From: Candidatus Aegiribacteria sp.
GTDB lineage: Bacteria > Fermentibacterota > Fermentibacteria > Fermentibacterales > JCC-6
Assembly (NCBI GenBank): GCA_023138735.1
Contig: JAGLOY010000103.1
Span: 1 to 32,443 of the forward strand
DNA: 32,443 nt
Reading direction: 5' to 3'
Within the stretch, counting starts at the first letter, position 1. Each line of letters starts with the position of its first letter. Shown here piece by piece: positions 1 through 10,060 of the stretch. The position numbers and the translations under genes were made by a program. A model generated the notes under the pieces. That model was given only the letters and a program-made list of their open reading frames with translations. It was not told where the DNA came from and made no database searches.

Positions 1-830
1 CCTGCAGCATACCCGAACTGATCATCTGTAAGGTACTGTATATTCTCCTTATTAAAGGCGTCCGCTCTGCCGGCCTGAAGGTAACCCTCCTTGACCACTT
101 CCTGGGCAACACTCATGACAACACTTCTACAAGTCGGGACAAGCAGTGGAGATCCGTACTCGGCGGTTTTTCGTGCGACTCTTCCGAGAATAACAATACT
201 CGCGATCGTCTGGATATTATCCATATCCATTATGCCCGGTATATAAAGTACAGGTCTTCCCATTTCGGTTGCCCTGCCGACAGCTTCATCAACAGCCTCC
301 AGTCCAGCTATTTCGCGAATGTAGAGTTCTTTTCCCCGTTTTCCTGCTTCGATATAGTAGAAAATAACTCCGGTGATCAGGGCAAGAATGATAAGCATTC
401 CAATGCGGCCTTTGTAGATCCACTGGGCGGAGGGCACTGCTACAGCCATTTCGGAACTGGCCTCTACGTATCCCCCAAGATAGGAGACTATCCAGTAGCT
501 GTATTCGATGCCGTTACTCACCGATTGATCATTGTACATAAGAATATTCACTGGCAATGTGGTAATAAGCTCTTCCCCTCCAGAGGGGTCGCTCCTCATC
601 ACTCCGAGTGAATCGGGCATGGTTCGGGCGGTCTCCACCAGCCATGTCAGGCTTACTGACCCGCCAGCATCTTCTGGTGTATCCGAAGCCTCCAAATTAA
701 CGGCCCTACATACTTCCAATTCTATAACCGCCTCTGTTACAGCACTTTGGGGCGGATCTACGTTATCGGCCAGAGCTGCTCCCGCTGCGAATAGCAGCAG
801 GATAATCATATAGGCCGAAAGGTTATTCAT
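1..830 (-). CDS. DUF6754 family membrane protein, 3' end cut by window edge
   Basis: Reading from ATG at 830 (AGGAGGGAG just upstream) the frame stays open to base 1, giving the first 276 residues. Visible in order: a signal peptide (about residues 1-21, ending AAGAALA), a secreted region of about 130 residues that may be FN3-like (it ends near NGIEYSYWIVSYLGGYVEAS), one transmembrane helix (IGMLIILALITGVIFYYIEA) and the start of a cytoplasmic domain with GKELYIREIAGLEAVDEA, VGRATEMGRPVLYIPG and YLTDDQFGYAA. I recognise these blocks as the conserved DUF6754 domain, whose function is unknown. It is the last visible gene of the long minus-strand operon, behind the barrel-sandwich/KOW and MutL-like genes. 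The family assignment comes from remembered motifs. The remaining C-terminal part lies outside the window. Confidence 0.82.
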   Translation of the reverse strand, partial: MNNLSAYMIILLLFAAGAALADNVDPPQSAVTEAVIELEVCRAVNLEASDTPEDAGGSVSLTWLVETARTMPDSLGVMRSDPSGGEELITTLPVNILMYNDQSVSNGIEYSYWIVSYLGGYVEASSEMAVAVPSAQWIYKGRIGMLIILALITGVIFYYIEAGKRGKELYIREIAGLEAVDEAVGRATEMGRPVLYIPGIMDMDNIQTIASIVILGRVARKTAEYGSPLLVPTCRSVVMSVAQEVVKEGYLQAGRADAFNKENIQYLTDDQFGYAA

Positions 831-856
831 ACTCCCTCCTTACCTGTGATAAGAAA

Positions 857-880
857 GTGCCCCGGGAGATCCCAGGGCAC
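857..880 (-). terminator. Strong intercistronic hairpin, possible terminator/attenuator
   Basis: GTGCCC pairs with GGGCAC, then one c/a mismatch, then GGGA pairs with TCCC around a 2-nt loop. On the minus strand it is followed by TTTCTTAT. It lies in the 85-nt gap between the KOW-like gene (stop at 916) and the DUF6754 start (830). Only about 26 nt remain between hairpin and start codon, so DUF6754 has little room for its own promoter; the hairpin probably tunes read-through or mRNA stability. A full rho-independent terminator would normally carry a longer T tract. Confidence 0.6.
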
Positions 881-915
881 ATCCTTCTTTCACTGATCTA
901 TTAATTCGTGCAATA

Positions 916-2037
916 TTATTCCTCAATAAGTTCCACGTTTGCCCGCGGAACGGTAACGATTTCTCCATTATCGAATTTTACATCAAGAACCCTTACCTTA
1001 GCTTCGGAATCAAGAACCTGCAGCTCGGCGGGAAGAGCTTCAACCGTACCGAGTTTTCCAAAGTAGGGTGCCCGGATACATCGGACGGGAGAGCCAATAT
1101 CCATAGCGCCTGCAGACTTATCTGAACTCTTTTCCGTTTCAGTTCCCTCAAGGGGAATAACAACCTCAGGACGCATGACACCGGCTCTTATCTGAGTGGC
1201 ACCATTTACACTTGCAAGCAGCCCTTCACGGGATTTCAGCAGCTGGAAAGTCTCGCTGGCCATGGTCATTCTTCCGAAACCTTCCGTCAGAACAAGGGTT
1301 ATCCCCTTCTTCTCATGACCGGTTATGGCAACTCCAAGCTCGTATCCGAGGAATTCTTTCAGGTCTTTATCATCAAAGCCGCCGACGATGATTGCTTTCA
1401 CCCCGGTTCTGATAGCCTTGTTGAGAGTAGTGTAGGATACGAAGGAACCACCAAGCAGGACTTTCCCTCTGCATGACTCATCGATAAGATCCTCCGTGAG
1501 CTCATCTTCCGGCCCGTCAGTAAGAACCTTGAGTTCTCCCCTGGTTTCACCGCCGACACCGAAGATTCCCTGAACGAAAGTTGCGTACGCTTCAACTATT
1601 ACACCTTCGTTTTCGAGGATCTCTGTAACGGTCCCCAGGAGATAGGCATCTATTGCTACCGGGACAGGAGGTTCGCGGAGAACAGCCTGACCGGTTATCT
1701 TATTGTAACTTTCAAATGTGCCCTCTATGGGTGATTTCACCGTATTCTTGAAAAGACCGAAGAAACCTTTCGTCTGTCCGAGAGTCTGGTTTTCCTCAAT
1801 ACTATCGCCTTCCTTTACGAAAAGCAGTTCAGGAATATCCCCAGGTGGAAGACCCATTACATTCGCTATATTGAGCATCTTAACATTACCCGGAAGATGT
1901 GTCTTTGCCACGATGGTATCAGCGGTAACGGAATCACCTGCGTTTACCAGTGTCTCTCCCGCGAGGGGCAGCCTTCTTTCCTTGCGCACCAAAGTGCAGT
2001 CAGCAACTCTCAGACCAGGTGTGTATGCAAATGCCAT
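916..2037 (-). CDS. Conserved hypothetical: barrel-sandwich-type N-terminus with C-terminal KOW-like domain
   Basis: The 373-residue protein starts at ATG 2037, sharing one base with the upstream TAA stop (TAATG), behind GGAGGGAGG. An in-frame ATG at 2097 would overlap the MutL-like gene by 61 nt and is less likely. The N-terminal half has repeated short glycine/valine blocks typical of a barrel-sandwich hybrid or RnfC-like fold (LPLAGETLVNAGDSVTADTI, LLFVKEGDSIEENQTLGQTK, VKSPIEGTFESYN). The middle resembles an alpha/beta domain (KAIRTGVKAIIVGGFDDKDL). The last 60 residues look like a KOW/SH3-like barrel (IGSPVRCIRAPYFGKLGTVE, ending TVPRANVELIEE). No catalytic motif is seen and no function is known to me. 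Tight coupling to the MutL-like ATPase suggests they act together. Confidence 0.75.
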   Translation of the reverse strand: MAFAYTPGLRVADCTLVRKERRLPLAGETLVNAGDSVTADTIVAKTHLPGNVKMLNIANVMGLPPGDIPELLFVKEGDSIEENQTLGQTKGFFGLFKNTVKSPIEGTFESYNKITGQAVLREPPVPVAIDAYLLGTVTEILENEGVIVEAYATFVQGIFGVGGETRGELKVLTDGPEDELTEDLIDESCRGKVLLGGSFVSYTTLNKAIRTGVKAIIVGGFDDKDLKEFLGYELGVAITGHEKKGITLVLTEGFGRMTMASETFQLLKSREGLLASVNGATQIRAGVMRPEVVIPLEGTETEKSSDKSAGAMDIGSPVRCIRAPYFGKLGTVEALPAELQVLDSEAKVRVLDVKFDNGEIVTVPRANVELIEE

Positions 2038-3911
2038 TATTCGCCTCCCTCCAGGTCCATGAATCTCTCGGGATAGATATCCAGTGCTTTTGACCATTCC
2101 TGCAGTTTCTCTATCCGCTGTGCATCATCTTTCGGAAGTACGAAGGGTCTTCCCCTTCCGTCGAAGATAAGACCGACAACACCGCCTTCAAGCTCACCAA
2201 TCCACTCGTTGCTTGGTCCGTTTCCAACGTCCAGATTCTTAGCGGGTTTGATAACTGCGTTTACTTTCTCGCCAACACCCAGTGGCTCAACGTGCATTTT
2301 CCCGAGCTCCATCTCAATATCAATGGATGAGCCGTCCTGCTTTGTGAGAGTGACTTCAGCCAGAACCGTGGCTTTTTTGTTTACTCCCGCAGGCGCTATG
2401 CATGTGCCAAGGCGGATCAGGCAATCCTTGTCGAATACCTCGGTTGCCGCTTCGGGAAGAACCTCCGAGAGCACTCCAAGCTGAGGCATCATGAAGATGG
2501 AATCCACCGCCAGCATTGTAATACCCTCGGGGAGGAAAGCGTCAATTACCATCAGGGCAGCCTGGCTTCGCCTCGGAGCGTGTGAGAGTACTCCACCCGA
2601 TCCTATGAGAAGATCAAGAGTCATCATGTTGACCAGGGTTGCACCGGTCTGGGTCTGCTCGAATGCGTCTCCGATGGTTCTCTCCTGAGCAACTCCCTTA
2701 AGACCTGTGGCCAGATCCTTATGCTGAACCAGTGCGAGCCTGAGAGCTTCTCTGGCTATCGCCTGCTCCACTATGAGTTCCTTTAGTAACTGTGGAATAG
2801 TAGTGGGGCGTATCATCTTGTTTCTTATTCTGTTCCGCAGGTCGGCCTCGTCCATATGAAACGGGACCCAACGCATAACATTGTCGTAACCTGCACTGAC
2901 AAATACGTTAGACACACTGTAACTCATACCCAGGTTCGCGGATACCGTTCGATTGAATACGGTTTCCTCTCCGCTGCTGAAAACGCTGAAGACATCGGTG
3001 GTGGCTCCGCCTATATCGACACCCATAACCTCGATGTTCTCTTTCTCTGCAACAGCTTCGATCAGTTTGCCAACTGCACCGGGGGTGGGCATTATTGGAA
3101 CCTGTTTCCATTCGCCATCCACGTAGTGGCCGGCCCATTTCATGAGCCTGGGATAGCCGGGTGCCTGAGCCATAACATGTTCCATAAAAAGCTCATGAAT
3201 AGTATCCCGGGCGGGGCCCAGATTCTCTCTCTCGAGAACAGGTCTGAGGTTATCCACTACCTTAAGTTCGACCTGTTCACCGAGTTCTTCCTTCACCAGT
3301 TCACGGGCGTTCTTATTACCGGCATATATAACCGGGAGCTTGTATCCAACGCCGAATCTCGGCTTCGGGTCGGCGGCCTTTATCACTTCCGCGAGTTCGA
3401 TCACATGATCGATCGTTCCGCCGTCAATACCGCCGGAAAGAAGGATCATATCCGGCCTGAGCCTTCTTATGTCGGCCACCTTCTCGTGGGGAAGTCTTCC
3501 GTCGTTAGAGGCAACTATATCCATAACGATGGCCCCGGCACCCAGTGCTGCCCGCTGGGCGCTTTCACCCGTCATGGATTTCACAACTCCTGCCACTGTC
3601 ATCTGCAGACCGCCTCCGGCAGAGGAAGTTGACATGTAAATATCCACTCCATCTGTACTGTCGGGGGAAACCTGTACGCCGTCTTCATCCGCTTTAAGGA
3701 ATTTGCGCCCTTCCAGATCCTCAATCTCCCCAACAGCATTCAGTACACCTTTTGTCACATCCTCGGCGGGGGCTTCGACTGTTGTCGGAGCTTCCCCCCT
3801 TCGAATGAGACGAAATTCGCCATCTTTCTTCTCGATAAGAATGGCCTTAGTGGTGGTACTGCCGCAGTCAGTCGCCATTATTCTGGTGATTTCTTTGCTG
3901 GCCACCGCCAT
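2037..3911 (-). CDS. GlmL/MutL-family ASKHA ATPase (glutamate-mutase-activator-like), long form
   Basis: A 624-residue protein starting at ATG 3911 behind GGAGG. It has the actin/Hsp70-type phosphate loop TDCGSTTTKAIL near residue 15, the family block STSSAGGGLQMTVAGVVKSM, LRPDMILLSGGIDGGT, and a second phosphate loop MGVDIGGATTDVFSVF near residue 300. These are hallmarks of the MutL/GlmL family, which in clostridia accompanies coenzyme-B12 glutamate mutase. It is unrelated to mismatch-repair MutL. Classical GlmL is about 460 residues; this one carries a C-terminal extension of roughly 150 residues with beta-rich character (GVVGLIFDGRGRPFVLPKD). No glmE or glmS is nearby, so glutamate mutase reactivation is not supported here. 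It is coupled by TAATG to the KOW-like gene. Confidence 0.85.
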   Translation of the reverse strand: MAVASKEITRIMATDCGSTTTKAILIEKKDGEFRLIRRGEAPTTVEAPAEDVTKGVLNAVGEIEDLEGRKFLKADEDGVQVSPDSTDGVDIYMSTSSAGGGLQMTVAGVVKSMTGESAQRAALGAGAIVMDIVASNDGRLPHEKVADIRRLRPDMILLSGGIDGGTIDHVIELAEVIKAADPKPRFGVGYKLPVIYAGNKNARELVKEELGEQVELKVVDNLRPVLERENLGPARDTIHELFMEHVMAQAPGYPRLMKWAGHYVDGEWKQVPIMPTPGAVGKLIEAVAEKENIEVMGVDIGGATTDVFSVFSSGEETVFNRTVSANLGMSYSVSNVFVSAGYDNVMRWVPFHMDEADLRNRIRNKMIRPTTIPQLLKELIVEQAIAREALRLALVQHKDLATGLKGVAQERTIGDAFEQTQTGATLVNMMTLDLLIGSGGVLSHAPRRSQAALMVIDAFLPEGITMLAVDSIFMMPQLGVLSEVLPEAATEVFDKDCLIRLGTCIAPAGVNKKATVLAEVTLTKQDGSSIDIEMELGKMHVEPLGVGEKVNAVIKPAKNLDVGNGPSNEWIGELEGGVVGLIFDGRGRPFVLPKDDAQRIEKLQEWSKALDIYPERFMDLEGGE

Positions 3912-3928
3912 CTACCTCCTTGTTCTTT

Positions 3929-4264
3929 TTAATCGCTCTTCCGTCTGAACCGGCTCCAGAAGGATTTTCTGTCCTTCTTCTCCTTCCGGTGGGCTAACTT
4001 CAGCTCTGACCGGCGCTGGACTTCGAGAGCGTTTTCCTCTTCTATTGCAATTGTAAGTTTCTCTACGTTTTCCCTGTCTTCAAGCATACGGACAAACTTG
4101 TAATAATTACCCGACTGTACAACAAGAGACACTATCGGGTTCGCGAATATAAGAACCTGGTTCCCAAGAAACGAAAGGGGCTTGATAGTTTCGAGGAATA
4201 TGATCGCGGGAACGGTCAGCTGTCGCTGGACGATTTCCTTCGCGATCTTACCCATGAATTCCGA
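3929..4264 (-). CDS. Small conserved hypothetical with hydrophobic core and basic tail
   Basis: The frame is open from 4423, but codons before 4302 overlap the preceding gene, so I take ATG 4264 (a GGA lies 6 nt upstream), giving 111 residues. Starts at CTG or ATT between 4264 and 4302 cannot be excluded. Residues 13-48 are hydrophobic (LTVPAIIFLETIKPLSFLG, NPIVSLVV) and could be a membrane-associated hairpin. A charged helical stretch follows (RMLEDRENVEKLTIAIEEEN), then a very basic tail ending WSRFRRKSD. The stop is 17 nt before the MutL-like start, so it belongs to that operon. Function unknown; the hydrophobic and basic parts suggest peripheral attachment to the inner face of the membrane. 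Confidence 0.6.
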   Translation of the reverse strand, partial: SEFMGKIAKEIVQRQLTVPAIIFLETIKPLSFLGNQVLIFANPIVSLVVQSGNYYKFVRMLEDRENVEKLTIAIEEENALEVQRRSELKLAHRKEKKDRKSFWSRFRRKSD

Positions 4265-4301
4265 GAAGTCTTCGGAGCCATCGATATCAATCAGATCCTG
4301 A

Positions 4302-4721
4302 CTACCCGGCTGTGTGTGCCCTGATAAACTCAAGTACTTCCTCTCTGTTTCCGGAGAACTGAACCGACAGTCCTCTGAATTTAGCCAGTCTGGTGGGCTG
4401 GGGGAAGGGGCTGAGAAGCACACCGTATTTGTCAGGTACGATGCTCTTCACCTGGCTCCACTTTTTTATCTCATTTCCGAACGGGGATTTCTTCTGCACA
4501 CCCCCGCTATCCATAATAAACTTAATCGGAAGAAAATACGTCCACCCCGATAGAAAAAGAACCGCTATGCCAACCATTCCCCACCAGGGATTGTTACCCA
4601 TGGCCATCGTGGCCAGCACACCGGAGAGAAGAATGATGAGAACATAGGCTACCGTTGCCCCCGGTCTCTCCTTCGCTGGATGGGATACCCATTCCAGAAT
4701 GTGATCGGTGGGCCCGTTCAT
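4302..4721 (-). CDS. Small two-TM membrane protein with PH-like C-terminal part
   Basis: ATG 4721 follows the gcvPB stop (4727) by 5 nt and gives 139 residues. An alternative ATG at 4766 would overlap gcvPB by 40 nt. Two transmembrane helices are evident: TVAYVLIILLSGVLATMAMG and WWGMVGIAVLFLSGWTYFL. The cytoplasmic tail (GGVQKKSPFGNEIKKWSQVK, then GVLLSPFPQPTRLAKFRGLS) resembles bacterial PH (bPH) domains, which commonly follow a pair of helices, as in YdbT-like proteins. That fold is inferred from pattern only. Position between gcvPB and the MutL-like module suggests it belongs with the latter. Confidence 0.62.
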   Translation of the reverse strand: MNGPTDHILEWVSHPAKERPGATVAYVLIILLSGVLATMAMGNNPWWGMVGIAVLFLSGWTYFLPIKFIMDSGGVQKKSPFGNEIKKWSQVKSIVPDKYGVLLSPFPQPTRLAKFRGLSVQFSGNREEVLEFIRAHTAG

Positions 4722-4726
4722 CTCAT

Positions 4727-6187
4727 CTATAGGCTCTCTCCCTCTTGGGAAGGCTCTACAATACAAAGATCTTTAACGGCCTTCACCTCATCGAGTCTTA
4801 GTACAGGTGTATTAACGGGAGCATCGGTTACGAGGTAAGGTTTTTCCTCTGCTTCCTCTGCAATGGATATCATGGCTTCAACGAAAGCATCCAGATCCTC
4901 AAGACTCTCCGTCTCGGTAGGTTCGATCATCAACGCTTCGTGTACTATCAGCGGGAAGTAAACAGTGGGCGCATGGTATCCATAATCCAGAAGCCTCTTG
5001 GCGATATCAAGTGTCTTAACTCCCTGTTTTGCCTGTCTGTCTCCCGAAAGAACGAATTCGTGCATGCATGGGCCGTTGTCGAAGGGATTATCAAAATACT
5101 CTGCGAGTTTTGCTTTCAGGTAATTCGCATTGATCAACGCAATCTCACTGACTTCCCTCAGTCCCTGGGCCCCGAGTGTTCTGATATAGGCGTAAGCCTT
5201 GTAAAGAACCCCGGTATTAGCATGGAAAGCAAGCAGCCTTCCAAAGGAATCCTGATTCCTGCAGAGCCGGTAGACGCCATCATCTTCAAGGATAACCACG
5301 GGATCCGGCAGAAAACGGGCAAGTTCTTCAGTGCAGGTTACAGGACCTGAGCCCGGTCCTCCTCCTCCGTGCGGGGTTGAGAAAGTTTTGTGGAGGTTAA
5401 GGTGGCATACATCGAATCCCATTTCTCCCGGTTTTGCGATACCGAGCAGGGCGTTCATATTGGCGCCATCCATGTAATTCAGTCCACCGGCTTCATGTAC
5501 AATGGAAGTCAGTTCTTCTATCCTGGATTCGAAGAGGCCGAGTGTATTGGGATTTGTAAGCATGAAAGCAGCAGTATTGGGGCCAACTTTCCGTCTGAGA
5601 TCCTCAGGGTCCACCAGACCGAATTCGTTGGACTCAACTCCTACAACAACGCAGTCAGCAAGAGTGGAAGTCGCGGGATTGGTTCCGTGAGCGGAATCCG
5701 GCATCAGGATTTCGTTCCTGTGCGATTCTCCCCTGCTCTTGTGGTAGCTCTTGATGAGCATTAAACCGCAGAATTCACCCTGAGCTCCAGCAGCGGGTTG
5801 AAGCGATACTCCTTTGAAACCTGTTATTTCACACAGGAATTCACCCAGCCTGTACATCAGTTCAAGGGAACCTGCAGCAAGCGAGTCCGGAACGAGGGGA
5901 TGGATTCCCGAAAGACCCCTGATCCTGGCCAGGTTCTCGTGTAGTTTCGGATTATATTTCATCGTGCAGGAACCCAGTGGATACATACCTTTATCAACAT
6001 GATGGTTCATCGAGCTGAGGTTTACATAATGCCTCAGGATCTGTCCTTCGGTTGCTTCGGGCAGACCCGTCTTACCACCGTTTTCACGCGGATTGCTTAT
6101 AAGTAGTTCAGAGGTTTCAGGTACATCAAGTTCAGGCAGTGATACACCCATCCTTCCAGGGCTGCTGAGCTCAAATATGGTCTTCAT
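4727..6187 (-). CDS. gcvPB: Glycine dehydrogenase (decarboxylating) subunit 2, P-protein beta
   Basis: This 486-residue PLP subunit of the split P-protein decarboxylates glycine and, together with gcvPA, passes the aminomethyl group to lipoyl-GcvH. Family blocks present: NHHVDKGMYPLGSCTMKYNP, LQPAAGAQGEF, LMPDSAHGTNPAT, and the PLP site LNLHKTFSTPHGGGGPGSGP with the Schiff-base lysine at K267. Length is normal for the subunit (about 480-500). Its ATG overlaps the gcvPA stop (ATGA), which implies translational coupling and 1:1 synthesis. It is the fourth gene of the gcv block, and the operon appears to continue into the MutL-like module. Confidence 0.97.
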   Translation of the reverse strand: MKTIFELSSPGRMGVSLPELDVPETSELLISNPRENGGKTGLPEATEGQILRHYVNLSSMNHHVDKGMYPLGSCTMKYNPKLHENLARIRGLSGIHPLVPDSLAAGSLELMYRLGEFLCEITGFKGVSLQPAAGAQGEFCGLMLIKSYHKSRGESHRNEILMPDSAHGTNPATSTLADCVVVGVESNEFGLVDPEDLRRKVGPNTAAFMLTNPNTLGLFESRIEELTSIVHEAGGLNYMDGANMNALLGIAKPGEMGFDVCHLNLHKTFSTPHGGGGPGSGPVTCTEELARFLPDPVVILEDDGVYRLCRNQDSFGRLLAFHANTGVLYKAYAYIRTLGAQGLREVSEIALINANYLKAKLAEYFDNPFDNGPCMHEFVLSGDRQAKQGVKTLDIAKRLLDYGYHAPTVYFPLIVHEALMIEPTETESLEDLDAFVEAMISIAEEAEEKPYLVTDAPVNTPVLRLDEVKAVKDLCIVEPSQEGESL

Positions 6188-7536
6188 GCTCTACCTCCCT
6201 TGCAGATCCCGGCCGCAGTGCTGACGTACCGATCGATCTCATCCCTGGTACGTTTTTCAGTCACGGTAACCAGCATGGCGCCATCTCCAAGCTCGACGAT
6301 CGGAAGTCCGGCAAGAAAACCGTGTTCGATCATTCTATCCCTTAGTTCAATCGAGGATATCGGGAACGAGATGACGAATTCTCTGAAGAACGGTGTGTTC
6401 CCGAAAACCCGGGAAACACCCGGGATCTCAAGCAGTTTTTTCTCGAGGTAATGGCTCTTGTGGTAACACTGGCTGGAAACTTCCCGGAATCCCCGGGAGC
6501 CCATCAGAGAAAGATAGACCACATTAGCGAGAGCCATAAGTGCCTGGTTAGAACAGATGTTGCTTGTGGCTTTGTCCCTTCTGATATGCTGCTCACGGGT
6601 TTGAAGGGTCAGAACGTAACCGGTCTGTCCTGCGCGATCAGTAGTTCTGCCGATTATCCTCCCGGGCATTTTCCTTGCAAGTTTTGTTCTCGCAGCCATG
6701 AAACCGATATATGGTCCTCCGTAGGACATGGATATTCCCATGCTCTGGCCTTCTCCTACAACTATATCAGCCCCGGCATCTCCGGGTGACCGGAGAAGGG
6801 GCAGAGCGACCGGGTCAGCGGCAACGATGAAAAGCCCTTTATGTTCATGAATCTGATCCGCAACAGACTGCAGGTCTTCTATGAGACCGAAATAGTTCGG
6901 GTACTGAACAAGTACCGCTGCAGTACCGCCCTCAATAAGTTTGCTCGCGGTGGCAAGATCGAGGGAACCATCCTCAAGGAAAGGGATCTCGTATATCTCG
7001 AAATCGTCCCGGCTCAGATAGGTCCTGATGACATCTAGCCATCTTGGATTTAGTGAACCCGCGATCAGGATCCTCTGCTTCCTTGTAGCCCGCATGGCCA
7101 TGAGACAGGCTTCAGCAGCTGCAGATGCACCGTCGTACATGGAGGCATTTGCCATATCCATTCCGGTAAGCCTGGCAATCATGGTCTGGTATTCAAAAAT
7201 CGCCTGAAGAGTGCCCTGGCTTACTTCAGCCTGATAAGGCGTATAAGCTGTATAGAATTCGCTCCTGAGAAGAATATGGTCTATAGCTGCGGGAATGAAA
7301 TGATCGTAGGCACCTGCTCCCATGAAACAGGCCAGTTCAGCTCCTTTGTTTCTGCGGGCAAATTCCTCGAATTCGCGGGTCAGTTCAATCTCCGAGAGCG
7401 GTTCGGGGAGCTGGAGTTTCTCCTTCAGCCTGAATTTCTCCGGAACCGGTTCAAGCAGATCCTCGAATTTTGCAGCGCCGATAGCATGAAGCATCTTCTC
7501 TCTCTGCTCGGGGCCGTTCGGTACGAATCTGCTCAT
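6184..7536 (-). CDS. gcvPA: Glycine dehydrogenase (decarboxylating) subunit 1, P-protein alpha
   Basis: The 450-residue partner of GcvPB; the two form the active P-protein of split-type organisms such as Bacillus and many anaerobes. Typical N-terminal blocks are present: FMGAGAYDHFIPAAIDHI, FYTAYTPYQAEVSQGTLQAI, YEYQTMI-like FEYQTMIARLTGMDMANASM, then YDGASAAAEA. Fold-type-I aminotransferase features follow, including SMSYGGPYIGFMA and the RTTDRAGQTGYVLTLQTREQ/HIRRDKATSNICSNQAL region. The start at 7536 is 3 nt after the gcvH stop. This subunit lacks the catalytic lysine, as is normal for the family. Confidence 0.97.
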   Translation of the reverse strand: MSRFVPNGPEQREKMLHAIGAAKFEDLLEPVPEKFRLKEKLQLPEPLSEIELTREFEEFARRNKGAELACFMGAGAYDHFIPAAIDHILLRSEFYTAYTPYQAEVSQGTLQAIFEYQTMIARLTGMDMANASMYDGASAAAEACLMAMRATRKQRILIAGSLNPRWLDVIRTYLSRDDFEIYEIPFLEDGSLDLATASKLIEGGTAAVLVQYPNYFGLIEDLQSVADQIHEHKGLFIVAADPVALPLLRSPGDAGADIVVGEGQSMGISMSYGGPYIGFMAARTKLARKMPGRIIGRTTDRAGQTGYVLTLQTREQHIRRDKATSNICSNQALMALANVVYLSLMGSRGFREVSSQCYHKSHYLEKKLLEIPGVSRVFGNTPFFREFVISFPISSIELRDRMIEHGFLAGLPIVELGDGAMLVTVTEKRTRDEIDRYVSTAAGICKGGRA

Positions 7537-7539
7537 TGA

Positions 7540-7923
7540 CTACTCACCGATGAATTCGGAGTACTCTTCAGCACTCTTGAGGCCGGCAAAGCCGGAGGGA
7601 TCAGCAGTTTTCACGACAACCAGCCAACCCTTTTCGTAAGAACTCTCGTTTATAAGAGCCGGTTCATCCTCAAGACCCTCGTTAACCCTAACAACTTTAC
7701 ATTCAAACGGAGCGTAGAAATCCTCTGCAGTCTTCACCGCTTCGAGGGTGCCCAGGATATCACCGGCATTAAAATCCAGCATACCGGGGAATTCAACCAT
7801 CACGATCTCGCCCATCTGTTCCTGAGCGTAGAATGTAAGACCCATCATGTATTCGCCGTTTCCAAGGTCTTTTATCCATTCGTGCGTTTCCGTATAACGA
7901 AGTCCTTCAGGAATATTAGACAT
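7540..7923 (-). CDS. gcvH: Glycine cleavage system H protein
   Basis: 127 residues, the usual GcvH length. The lipoyl attachment region reads LGTLEAVKTAEDFYAP, which puts the lipoylated lysine at K64. The protein carries the aminomethyl intermediate from P-protein to T-protein. THEWI near residues 13-17 and the C-terminal YEKGWLVVV block are also typical. ATG 7923 is preceded by AGGAGAAATGTC, with the RBS overlapping the 14-nt gap after gcvT. The substitution of LEAVK for the common LESVK is conservative. Confidence 0.97.
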   Translation of the reverse strand: MSNIPEGLRYTETHEWIKDLGNGEYMMGLTFYAQEQMGEIVMVEFPGMLDFNAGDILGTLEAVKTAEDFYAPFECKVVRVNEGLEDEPALINESSYEKGWLVVVKTADPSGFAGLKSAEEYSEFIGE

Positions 7924-7937
7924 TTCTCCTCCTAGCG

Positions 7938-9035
7938 TTACTTTCTGCTGCCGTCTTTGTAGAATGGCAGTTTGACGGTTTTAACCGGAATTCTTTTTCC
8001 TCTAACCTCGGCTTCAAGCTCTGTACCTTTCTTGTGAAAGCCCTTTTCAACAAACGCCAGGCAGACTCCATGTCCCAGGGCCGGCGCAAGGGAACCGCTT
8101 GTGACTACTCCAACTTTTCTGTTGCCCTCAAAGAGTTCAGCACCTTGCCTGGGAAATCCTTTTCCCAATACCTCAAGTCCAACGATATACCTGGCTGGCT
8201 TTTCCTTTTTCTGTCTGGCCATGACTTCGCGCCCTATGAATTCCTTATCGGTCTTGAGTTTTACAACCCACCCGAGCTTGGCTTCTATGGGAGTTGTTGT
8301 GTGGTCCATATCGTTTCCATATAGCAGGTATCCCACCTCAAGCCTTAAAGTATCCCTGGCGCCCAATCCCACCGGCTTAATCCCGAACTCTTCTCCGGCT
8401 TTCATGACAGCGTCCCATATGGCCTCTGCATCTTCATATTGTATGTATATTTCGAATCCGTCTTCACCCGTGTAGCCGGTTCTTGCTATCAGGGCATTCT
8501 TCCCGGCAAAGACACCAGATGTGTGGGAATAGTAACCTATCTCCTGGAGCTTTTCATCGGTAAGCTTCTGGGCTACTTTCTCGGCATCAGGACCCTGTAT
8601 GGCAACAAGAGCTGTTTCGTCACTCTCGTTTGTCAGATCAATACTGTAGCCTGCGGTATGATTGTTCACCCATGCCCAGTCCTTCTCGATGTTGGAAGCG
8701 TTGACAATGATCAGGTATTCATCGGAGCGGAGCCTGTACACGATAAGGTCATCAACAATACCGCCATCCGGGTAGCACATTGTTGAATAGTAGGCCTTTC
8801 CGGGTTCCACTTCCGAATCGTTGGTTAGAAGGTAATCCAGAAATTTTGAAGCGTCTTTCCCTATCACTCTGAATTCGCCCATGTGGGAAAGGTCGAAAAC
8901 ACCAACTCCGGAGCGGACTGCATTGTGTTCTTCCTTTACTGAAGTGTACTTGATAGGCATGATATAACCGGCAAAGGATTCCATCCTGGCACCGAGGTTG
9001 ACATGTTTGTCGTGCAGGGCTGTCTTTTTGTCCAT
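7938..9035 (-). CDS. gcvT: Aminomethyltransferase, glycine cleavage T protein
   Basis: Start chosen at ATG 9035 (AGGAG 7 nt upstream), giving 365 residues, the normal family length. The frame is open to 9158, but that would add 41 residues of low-quality sequence covering the promoter region. Family blocks: LGARMESFAGYIMPIKYTSV, VFDLSHMGEF, YLLTNDSEVEPGKAYYSTMC, GGIVDDLIVYR, ALVAIQGPDAEKV, ARTGYTGEDGFEIYI and GLGARDTLRLEVGYLLYGND. It transfers the methylene group to tetrahydrofolate and releases ammonia. It is the first gene of the operon; the leader upstream shows a palindrome and no glycine-riboswitch-like core. Confidence 0.97.
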   Translation of the reverse strand: MDKKTALHDKHVNLGARMESFAGYIMPIKYTSVKEEHNAVRSGVGVFDLSHMGEFRVIGKDASKFLDYLLTNDSEVEPGKAYYSTMCYPDGGIVDDLIVYRLRSDEYLIIVNASNIEKDWAWVNNHTAGYSIDLTNESDETALVAIQGPDAEKVAQKLTDEKLQEIGYYSHTSGVFAGKNALIARTGYTGEDGFEIYIQYEDAEAIWDAVMKAGEEFGIKPVGLGARDTLRLEVGYLLYGNDMDHTTTPIEAKLGWVVKLKTDKEFIGREVMARQKKEKPARYIVGLEVLGKGFPRQGAELFEGNRKVGVVTSGSLAPALGHGVCLAFVEKGFHKKGTELEAEVRGKRIPVKTVKLPFYKDGSRK

Positions 9036-9068
9036 TCGGTTTCTCCTGTACTTAACTTGTTCCCTGGA

Positions 9069-9084
9069 ATATTTCATGAAATAT
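9069..9084. promoter_or_regulatory. Perfect 16-bp palindrome upstream of gcvT, candidate operator
   Basis: ATATTTCATGAAATAT is its own reverse complement. It lies 34 nt upstream of the gcvT ATG and 78 nt upstream of the divergent gene at 9162. A weak minus-strand promoter can be drawn with TTGCAT (9117-9122), a 17-nt spacer and TAAATT (9094-9099), which would put the palindrome just downstream of the transcription start as a repressor site. It is AT-rich and short, so as an RNA hairpin it would be weak; a dimeric regulator site is the better reading. Confidence 0.5.
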
Positions 9085-9161
9085 ACGGGTATGAATTTAC
9101 CAAAAAAGGAGACGGAATGCAATGATGGCGCAGGGGCATATTTCAGAAAGAATATCATTCA

Positions 9162-9707
9162 ATGAATGCTGTTATTCCACCGCGTCTGCTTAAGAAACTT
9201 GCAAGGGAATCACGCGCGGCAGTCGCGCCGGATTTCCTTGATGTACTGCTTGCTGAAGCTGTAGCGAGAAGGTGGTTCCTGAACGAATATATCCCCTGCT
9301 GGAGAACACCTCAGCGCCCCCCCGACAAGGGCAGGTACAGCCTCCTGTTCGCAAGCGGAAGAAGAGCAATTGTGGTCCCTGCGGGAAGAAGACGTGTTTC
9401 CTTCGATATCATGGCAAATGCCAGGTGCGATTATCTACTGACGGTTGATATGCAGGATGCTTCTTCGGGCCATGTAAGCGGGTTCTTCTACCTGTTCGAT
9501 ATCCGTAAACCTGGAAACATCGAATGGAGACCGGATCTGGATATCCTGGACACCAGATCAATGGATGATTTCCCCGAACTCCAGAAAATACCTCGAAACT
9601 TCAGACTCAGCTATTTCCTTCAAAGTCTCAGGCTTCTGATAATGGGCGACAGAAAAGTCCCCCTTCCTATCCCTGACGGATTTCACAATAAATCAAGTGA
9701 ATATTAA
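9162..9707 (+). CDS. Hypothetical protein
   Basis: 181 residues from ATG 9162, divergent from gcvT. No signal peptide or transmembrane helix is visible. A basic N-terminal helix (LLKKLARESRAAVAP) leads into a mixed alpha/beta body with GRRAIVVPAGRRRVSFDIMA and SSGHVSGFFYLFDIRKPGNI, and an aromatic-rich C-terminus (FRLSYFLQSLRLLIMGDRKV). I do not recognise a family. The ribosome binding site is poor (AGAAAGA about 10 nt upstream), so an alternative start is possible. It lies 38 nt before ppnP and may be co-transcribed with it. Confidence 0.6.
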   Translation: MNAVIPPRLLKKLARESRAAVAPDFLDVLLAEAVARRWFLNEYIPCWRTPQRPPDKGRYSLLFASGRRAIVVPAGRRRVSFDIMANARCDYLLTVDMQDASSGHVSGFFYLFDIRKPGNIEWRPDLDILDTRSMDDFPELQKIPRNFRLSYFLQSLRLLIMGDRKVPLPIPDGFHNKSSEY

Positions 9708-9745
9708 TGCATATGGCGACTGCAAAATACAGGAGGAAAATGCGA

Positions 9746-10060
9746 ATGTCAGAGTTCTGTAACGTAACAGTGGTGAAAAAAGCGAACACATACTTCGGGG
9801 GTTCAGTAACCAGCAGGACTGTCAGATTCCAGGATGGCTCACAAAAAACTCTCGGAATCATGATGCCGGGAGAGTACGAGTTCAATACCGCCGATAAGGA
9901 ACTTATGGAAATCCTTGCAGGGGAGGCTCAAGTTCTTCTTCCCGAAGATGATAGCTGGAGTGTCTTCAGAGAAGGGGATGTATTTGAAGTGAGGGCGGAT
10001 TCATCTTTCAAAATACGCACGCAGGATATACTGGATTACTGTTGTTCGTACCTGACTTAG
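9746..10060 (+). CDS. ppnP: Pyrimidine/purine nucleoside phosphorylase (YaiE/PpnP family)
   Basis: 104 residues from ATG 9746, 9 nt after AGGAGG (9731-9736). The in-frame ATG at 9740 is too close to that RBS and the one at 9707 would add 13 residues. The sequence follows E. coli PpnP block by block: ANTYFGGSVTSRTV, LGIMMPGEYEFNTADKELME, AGEAQVLLPEDDSWSVFREG and a terminal YCCSYL, where the E. coli family has YLCRYL. The family is a single-domain cupin that cleaves several nucleosides with phosphate to free base and ribose-1-phosphate. Length matches the family (about 94-105). Confidence 0.9.
   Translation: MSEFCNVTVVKKANTYFGGSVTSRTVRFQDGSQKTLGIMMPGEYEFNTADKELMEILAGEAQVLLPEDDSWSVFREGDVFEVRADSSFKIRTQDILDYCCSYLT

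Follow-up and report, generated by a model that had tools for sequence, protein, structure and literature searches.

A putative MutL-type ATPase and a KOW protein accompany a DUF6754 membrane cassette in Candidatus Aegiribacteria and other bacterial lineages

The 32,443-nucleotide contig analyzed here (the window; contig C6, JAGLOY010000103.1) belongs to a Candidatus Aegiribacteria metagenome-assembled genome (MAG) of 192 contigs and 3.22 Mb that is 91% complete, and carries part of a module of eight genes: g1, g2, MutL, KOW, DUF6754, TMA, TMB, and TMC, the last three lying on a second contig. Judged by sequence, the module comprises a four-protein membrane cassette (DUF6754-TMA-TMB-TMC), a dedicated MutL-type ATPase, its KOW partner and two small proteins. 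In the favored reading, which is held at slightly less than an even chance, MutL and KOW would power or remodel several paralogous membrane complexes by means of the ATPase. An original prediction made from the window sequence had described five of these genes as an undescribed system appended to the glycine cleavage (gcv) operon.

All five genes are present as described, on the minus strand directly behind gcvPB, and their order stands, but their number reflects where the contig was cut. The window DUF6754 protein, which consists of a signal-like helix, an FN3-like domain, a transmembrane (TM) helix and the start of the DUF6754 domain, matches only profile positions 2-144 of 257 in PF20539 (194.6 bits). 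The remaining domain opens contig C5 (profile positions 138-249, 203.5 bits), and the two contigs share an exact 25-nt end overlap. Because the contig end falls inside DUF6754, the five-gene limit is artefactual and the module has eight genes. Membership of the fifth protein in DUF6754, a family whose Pfam entry gives no function, was correctly called. TMA has 207 aa with six predicted TM helices, TMB has 279 aa with a 219-residue loop flanked by one TM helix on each side (TM-alpha/beta-TM), and TMC has 217 aa with five TM helices at the threshold used (5-6 TM). The MAG carries three DUF6754 genes, one of which is the copy split over C5 and C6.

Co-occurrence was surveyed in 192 genomes, 42 from the MAG's own order (including the MAG itself, G000) and 150 from other families, at E 0.001 for KOW and DUF6754 and at the Pfam cut-off for MutL; the g1 and g2 profiles are weak, and their counts are lower bounds. 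Among the 150 genomes of other families, DUF6754 was found in 36 (about a quarter of the sampled bacterial families), KOW in 33, MutL over the cut-off in 40, and TMC in 38. KOW was confined to DUF6754 genomes (33 of 33; Fisher 4e-30), MutL was present in 32 of the 33 KOW genomes and in 33 of the 36 DUF6754 genomes, and TMC accompanied DUF6754 in all 36. The own-order sample gave 42 genomes with DUF6754, 41 with TMC, 38 with KOW, and 39 with MutL (G046 falling below the cut-off). The gene-neighborhood survey that the original prediction proposed thus finds MutL and KOW accompanying DUF6754 in lineages that are not related to one another, where glmE is absent, and the converse pattern, DUF6754 and KOW mostly without MutL, was not seen. 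None of 14 well-known control genomes contained DUF6754, no DUF6754 relative was found in viral contigs and no KOW relative in plasmids. The named loci (those with a taxonomic label), the best 80 of 575 confirmed and hence biased toward close relatives, span Fermentibacteria, Zixibacteria, WOR-3/Stahlbacteria, Coatesbacteria, Latescibacteria, Cloacimonadota, Eisenbacteria, Edwardsbacteria, Poribacteria, Riflebacteria, Gemmatimonadota, Planctomycetes, Armatimonadetes, a Caldithrix MAG (L112), and a 'Deltaproteobacteria' MAG.

The cassette has a fixed gene order. The named loci hold 120 DUF6754 open reading frames (ORFs), 32 of them too close to a locus end to test, and TMA, TMB, and TMC follow DUF6754 in order and on the same strand in 83 of the 88 testable copies (the exceptions being L086, L092, L108, L111, and L112). 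Tandem copies are frequent, with two to four DUF6754 ORFs in 27 of the 80 loci. MutL and KOW were both found in 16 of the 39 named loci of at least 16 kb (MutL in 18, KOW in 16). The KOW loci of other families were compared for 29 of the 33 genomes (all except G075, G143, G155, and G189): MutL is the gene directly preceding KOW in 17 of them, seven have the full set of eight genes in a single order (L040, L135, L136, L137, L144, L146, with its MutL interrupted by a stop, and L151), and in L134, L153, and L154 seven genes keep that order, g1 being absent. Elsewhere the module is scattered or reordered (e.g., L143 and L156), and KOW stands alone in L132, L138, L140, L147, L148, L155, L157, and L158. 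The DUF6754 proteins at L040 9627-12434 (935 aa) and L136 5904-8735 (943 aa) have greatly extended N-terminal regions, which indicates wide variation in the outer portion of this subunit. DUF6754 genes without adjacent TMA, TMB or TMC were also observed at L007 1786-2952 (contig C143 of the MAG), where a gene that looks GNAT-like by eye adjoins, and at L174 12692-13948.

A natural fusion of MutL with KOW is the strongest evidence that the two act jointly, and with the cassette. Besides the copy in the MAG itself (Table 1), the family holds MutL-KOW fusions of 916-925 aa; in L174 (G033) the TMC of a second cassette is followed after 76 bases by the fusion, and in L172, L173, and L175 two DUF6754 genes flank it, with further genes intervening. 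This arrangement, together with the co-occurrence of MutL, KOW and DUF6754 without glmE, bears out the original view of a conserved undescribed system; the activation, assembly or repair process that the prediction had the ATPase drive is conjectural. The barrel-sandwich/KOW assignment is weak for the window protein by itself (Biotin_lipoyl E 0.015 and RnfC_N E 0.08, both below cut-off) and gains support from its relatives: at E up to 1, 21 of them gave matches to Biotin_lipoyl in 17 (best E 6.9e-5), RnfC_N in 13 (1.2e-5), and KOW in four (0.0022).

The MutL of the window was rightly placed in the MutL/GlmL family of ASKHA ATPases (PF13941, 410.3 bits, cut-off 27) and shares the fold and ATP motifs of that family: it keeps DCGSTTTK, DIGGATTD, and GSGG, which we take to be the phosphate and adenosine motifs. 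Unlike GlmL, it falls far below the equivalog cut-offs, with 218.6 bits against 475 for GlmL (NF040745) and 205.7 against 600 for Or-4 of ornithine degradation (NF040744), and it also fails the broader TIGR01319 subfamily (159.2 against 204.05). Module MutLs are longer (about 600-640 aa) than the GlmL/Or-4 type (449-491 aa). A 100/100 branch of a 61-row tree, which has a midpoint root and whose branches are very long where GlmL splits off, separates 55 module-type rows from six short ones, three of which adjoin glmE; the nearest relatives of the window copy are from same-genus genomes. On these sequence comparisons, the module MutL is assigned to a separate clade and not to GlmL. The absence of glutamate mutase, originally noted for the window, extends to the whole MAG as assembled (91% complete), which has no match to glutamate mutase E (PF06368), so that glmE was not encountered beyond the window either. 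Full-length glmE occurs in three of the 192 genomes.

Taken together, DUF6754, TMA, TMB, and TMC would form a single membrane complex, in which DUF6754 would contribute an alpha/beta domain on the cytosolic side and an FN3 domain on the outside, where TMB would add an alpha/beta domain of its own. The soluble MutL and KOW proteins would constitute an ATPase-adaptor unit on the cytosolic face, with ATP energizing or remodeling the complex. A single MutL-KOW pair may serve several cassettes, because most carriers hold one pair but often several cassettes: the 33 KOW genomes contain 75 DUF6754 matches, fragments included, with more than one in 20 genomes, whereas each has one stand-alone full-length KOW if fusions and short pieces are not counted. 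The job may lie in the envelope, in transport or assembly for example, which is the weakest step of the scheme; some diderms have a neighboring TonB-ExbBD-receptor set. In ECF-type transporters, likewise, one energizing unit may serve several membrane partners. This is an analogy only: the module ATPase belongs to PF13941, an ABC domain is absent from the window genes of the module, and Pfam scans of module proteins revealed no ECF-type relation except weak TMD0_ABC matches in six of 32 TMA members (best E 8.7e-5).

A wider reading, tentative and on balance doubtful, is that of a new class of membrane machine, in which an ASKHA ATPase with a barrel-sandwich/KOW adaptor, instead of an ABC, AAA or rotary motor, would power paralogous four-subunit complexes, two subunits of which would carry six-stranded alpha/beta domains on opposite membrane faces, the whole being spread over many uncultured phyla. 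If true, an ASKHA ATPase driving a membrane complex would be a new way of powering membrane work. The presence of DUF6754 in 36 of the 150 genomes, the shared gene order and the fusion point to a probably important envelope system, and the unnamed families KOW, TMA, TMB, TMC, and g2 become tied to one testable partner set. A literature search returned no mention of DUF6754, and such a system is undescribed in the titles and abstract openings of papers on GlmL/MutL, ASKHA proteins, Fermentibacteria, PilM, and unknown genes. We know of no described system of such composition; this analysis describes the membrane cassette that surrounds DUF6754 and the ATPase pair that goes with it, and TMB, TMC, KOW, and g2 belong to no named family.

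Several observations weigh against a dedicated ATPase-driven machine. DUF6754 occurs without KOW in three of the 36 genomes (G071, G099, and G118) and without MutL over the cut-off in three (G048, G099, and G118), TMC occurs without DUF6754 in two (G128 and G134, alone in the latter), and four of the 42 own-order genomes lack KOW, three of these being 67-77% complete. Parts of the module are unlinked in several genomes (e.g., G050, G027, and G166), and TonB-ExbBD neighbors are limited to some lineages. Topology was assigned by charge, and the charge differences that place the TMB domain on the outside are small. Finally, the ATPase role is deduced from sequence, and MutL could act as a scaffold instead. 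MutL also occurs without DUF6754 in seven genomes (G072, G091, G119, G120, G128, G147, and G185); G119 and G147 have full-length glmE adjoining it, and G128 (85% complete) retains g2, a long MutL, and TMC.

A scaffold role has a known parallel in the type IV pilus inner platform, where the actin-fold cytosolic protein PilM works with membrane partners, an analogy only. By this account MutL would be PilM-like and the module would be the inner-membrane base of a proton-motive-force-driven, envelope-spanning machine for secretion, motility or surface assembly. The company of an actin-fold protein with several membrane proteins, the FN3 domain within DUF6754, and the ExbB, ExbD, TonB and TonB-dependent receptor genes downstream in Fermentibacterota and WOR-3 (with the receptor also in L135) are all in keeping with it. 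The account is nevertheless considered unlikely: MutL retains its ATP motifs, most loci do not show the TonB set over the length available (16 of 89 loci, some of which are counted twice, have the ExbB family), and PilM, PilN, and PilO were absent from general Pfam scans of the module proteins, which distant relatives could escape. An Rnf/Nqr-like redox-driven ion pump, with KOW replacing RnfC/NqrA, is far less credible and judged highly improbable. Rnf and Nqr likewise pair a soluble barrel-sandwich protein with several membrane proteins, and RnfC_N and NQRA_N matches occur in KOW relatives and in the fusion (RnfC_N in L174 at 26.2 bits, just above the cut-off of 25.6). Unlike them, the module has an ASKHA ATPase and no conserved cysteine pattern; the invariant and nearly invariant positions include no cysteine in TMA, TMB, TMC or KOW and a single one, C331, in DUF6754, so that no conserved iron-sulfur site is evident, and no flavoprotein family was found.

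Service to glycine cleavage or other lipoyl enzymes, with KOW and MutL loading, repairing or anchoring lipoyl/H proteins at the membrane, is quite unlikely, even though the gcv link itself is not confined to Fermentibacterota. The gene gcvPB lies upstream of the module in seven of seven own-order loci (L041-L043 and L045-L048) and in four of the 29 loci of other families (L135, L137, and L144, and L134 with one gene between; genomes G107, G110, G170, and G175), as well as in the named locus L124, a close relative of L134. A rough binomial chance for this recurrence is 1e-8 to 2e-5 if the lineages are assumed independent, which they are not. Lipoate ligase directly follows the cassette in L135 and L137, and comes one or two genes later in L134 and L124. 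However, no gcv gene is present within the stretch retrieved at 25 of the 29 loci, some of whose stretches are ended by contig ends, and further cassettes of the same genomes lie away from gcv. The link is thus real but optional, and any tie to glycine/one-carbon metabolism, as originally suggested, would likewise be optional; the gcv operon is a linked neighbor, not counted within the module. The remaining alternative, that MutL serves a B12-dependent mutase as an ordinary GlmL-type helper and merely lies beside membrane genes, agrees with its PF13941 membership and is scarcely tenable given the missed GlmL and Or-4 cut-offs, the separate clade and a MAG without glmE; a full-length glmE is found in one of the 36 DUF6754 genomes (G159), where it has its own adjacent MutL.

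The window KOW and g2 and the L052 TMA and TMC had no Pfam match over the cut-off or at E 0.01, and neither had any of 17 g2 relatives at E 0.01. TMB matches were scattered and weak, TMC gave two single weak matches, and TMA members matched, apart from TMD0_ABC, DUF998, DUF4149, and others in one or two cases each; the weak TMA and TMC matches are taken as generic membrane-helix matches. Sequence searches of known structures with KOW, TMB, DUF6754, TMA, and TMC profiles and the window MutL returned nothing below E 0.08. A Foldseek and VIA-align comparison with the DUF6754 model recovered the FN3 domain, and the alpha/beta domain was barely covered by the search. The predicted models of DUF6754 and TMB share an order of elements: a TM helix, then six strands that alternate with helices, then another TM helix. 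Homology between module proteins gained no support: profile comparisons of DUF6754-TMB, TMA-TMC, KOW-DUF6754, and KOW-TMB gave no relation, and larger trimmed DUF6754 and TMB alignments matched only in a TM helix, so the likeness of the two models is only a resemblance.

Table 1. Coordinates of the module and associated features (window positions unless another contig is named).
Feature	Position	Strand	Description
g1	4302-4721	-	139 aa from ATG; two TM helices and a soluble C-terminal part
g2	3929 to 4333 or 4423	-	Small protein with uncertain start; hydrophobic stretch conserved, tail basic
MutL-like ASKHA ATPase	2037-3911	-	624 aa; PF13941
KOW (barrel-sandwich/KOW protein)	916-2037	-	373 aa; zero TM helices predicted
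DUF6754 protein, 5' part	3-830	-	Runs off window; PF20539
Module part on contig C5 (locus L005)	DUF6754 rest 3-401; TMA 411-1034; TMB 1034-1873; TMC 1870-2523
gcv operon	4727-9158	-	gcvPB 4727-6187, gcvPA 6184-7536, gcvH 7540-7923, gcvT ORF 7938-9158
Hairpin	857-880	-	10 pairs, z -3.7, T-rich tail; lies between KOW and DUF6754, which are 85 nt apart
MutL-KOW fusion	Contig C51 of the MAG		957 aa, without KOW-type end

Within the window, the operon runs gcvT-gcvH-gcvPA-gcvPB and then g1, which begins five bases past the gcvPB stop, and the KOW start codon ATG and the MutL stop share one base. A PH-like character of the soluble part of g1 is suggested solely by one relative, whose bPH_6 match is weak and misses the cut-off (E 0.011). 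The hairpin between KOW and DUF6754 has a similar counterpart in all three close relatives folded (L052, L053, and L054), and may be an attenuator or processing site, attenuating the membrane genes relative to MutL-KOW. A promoter and terminator scan of positions 1-10000 gave counts near chance, and no RNA family reached the gathering score across the window. Two genes follow the cassette in WOR-3 (L064, L067, and L073) and in L124/L134, one encoding DUF4388 and one weakly resembling roadblock/LC7. Beside the MutL-KOW fusion of the MAG, an opposite-strand gene on C51 (L013 3165-4781) resembles, by eye, a histidine/aromatic amino-acid ammonia-lyase.

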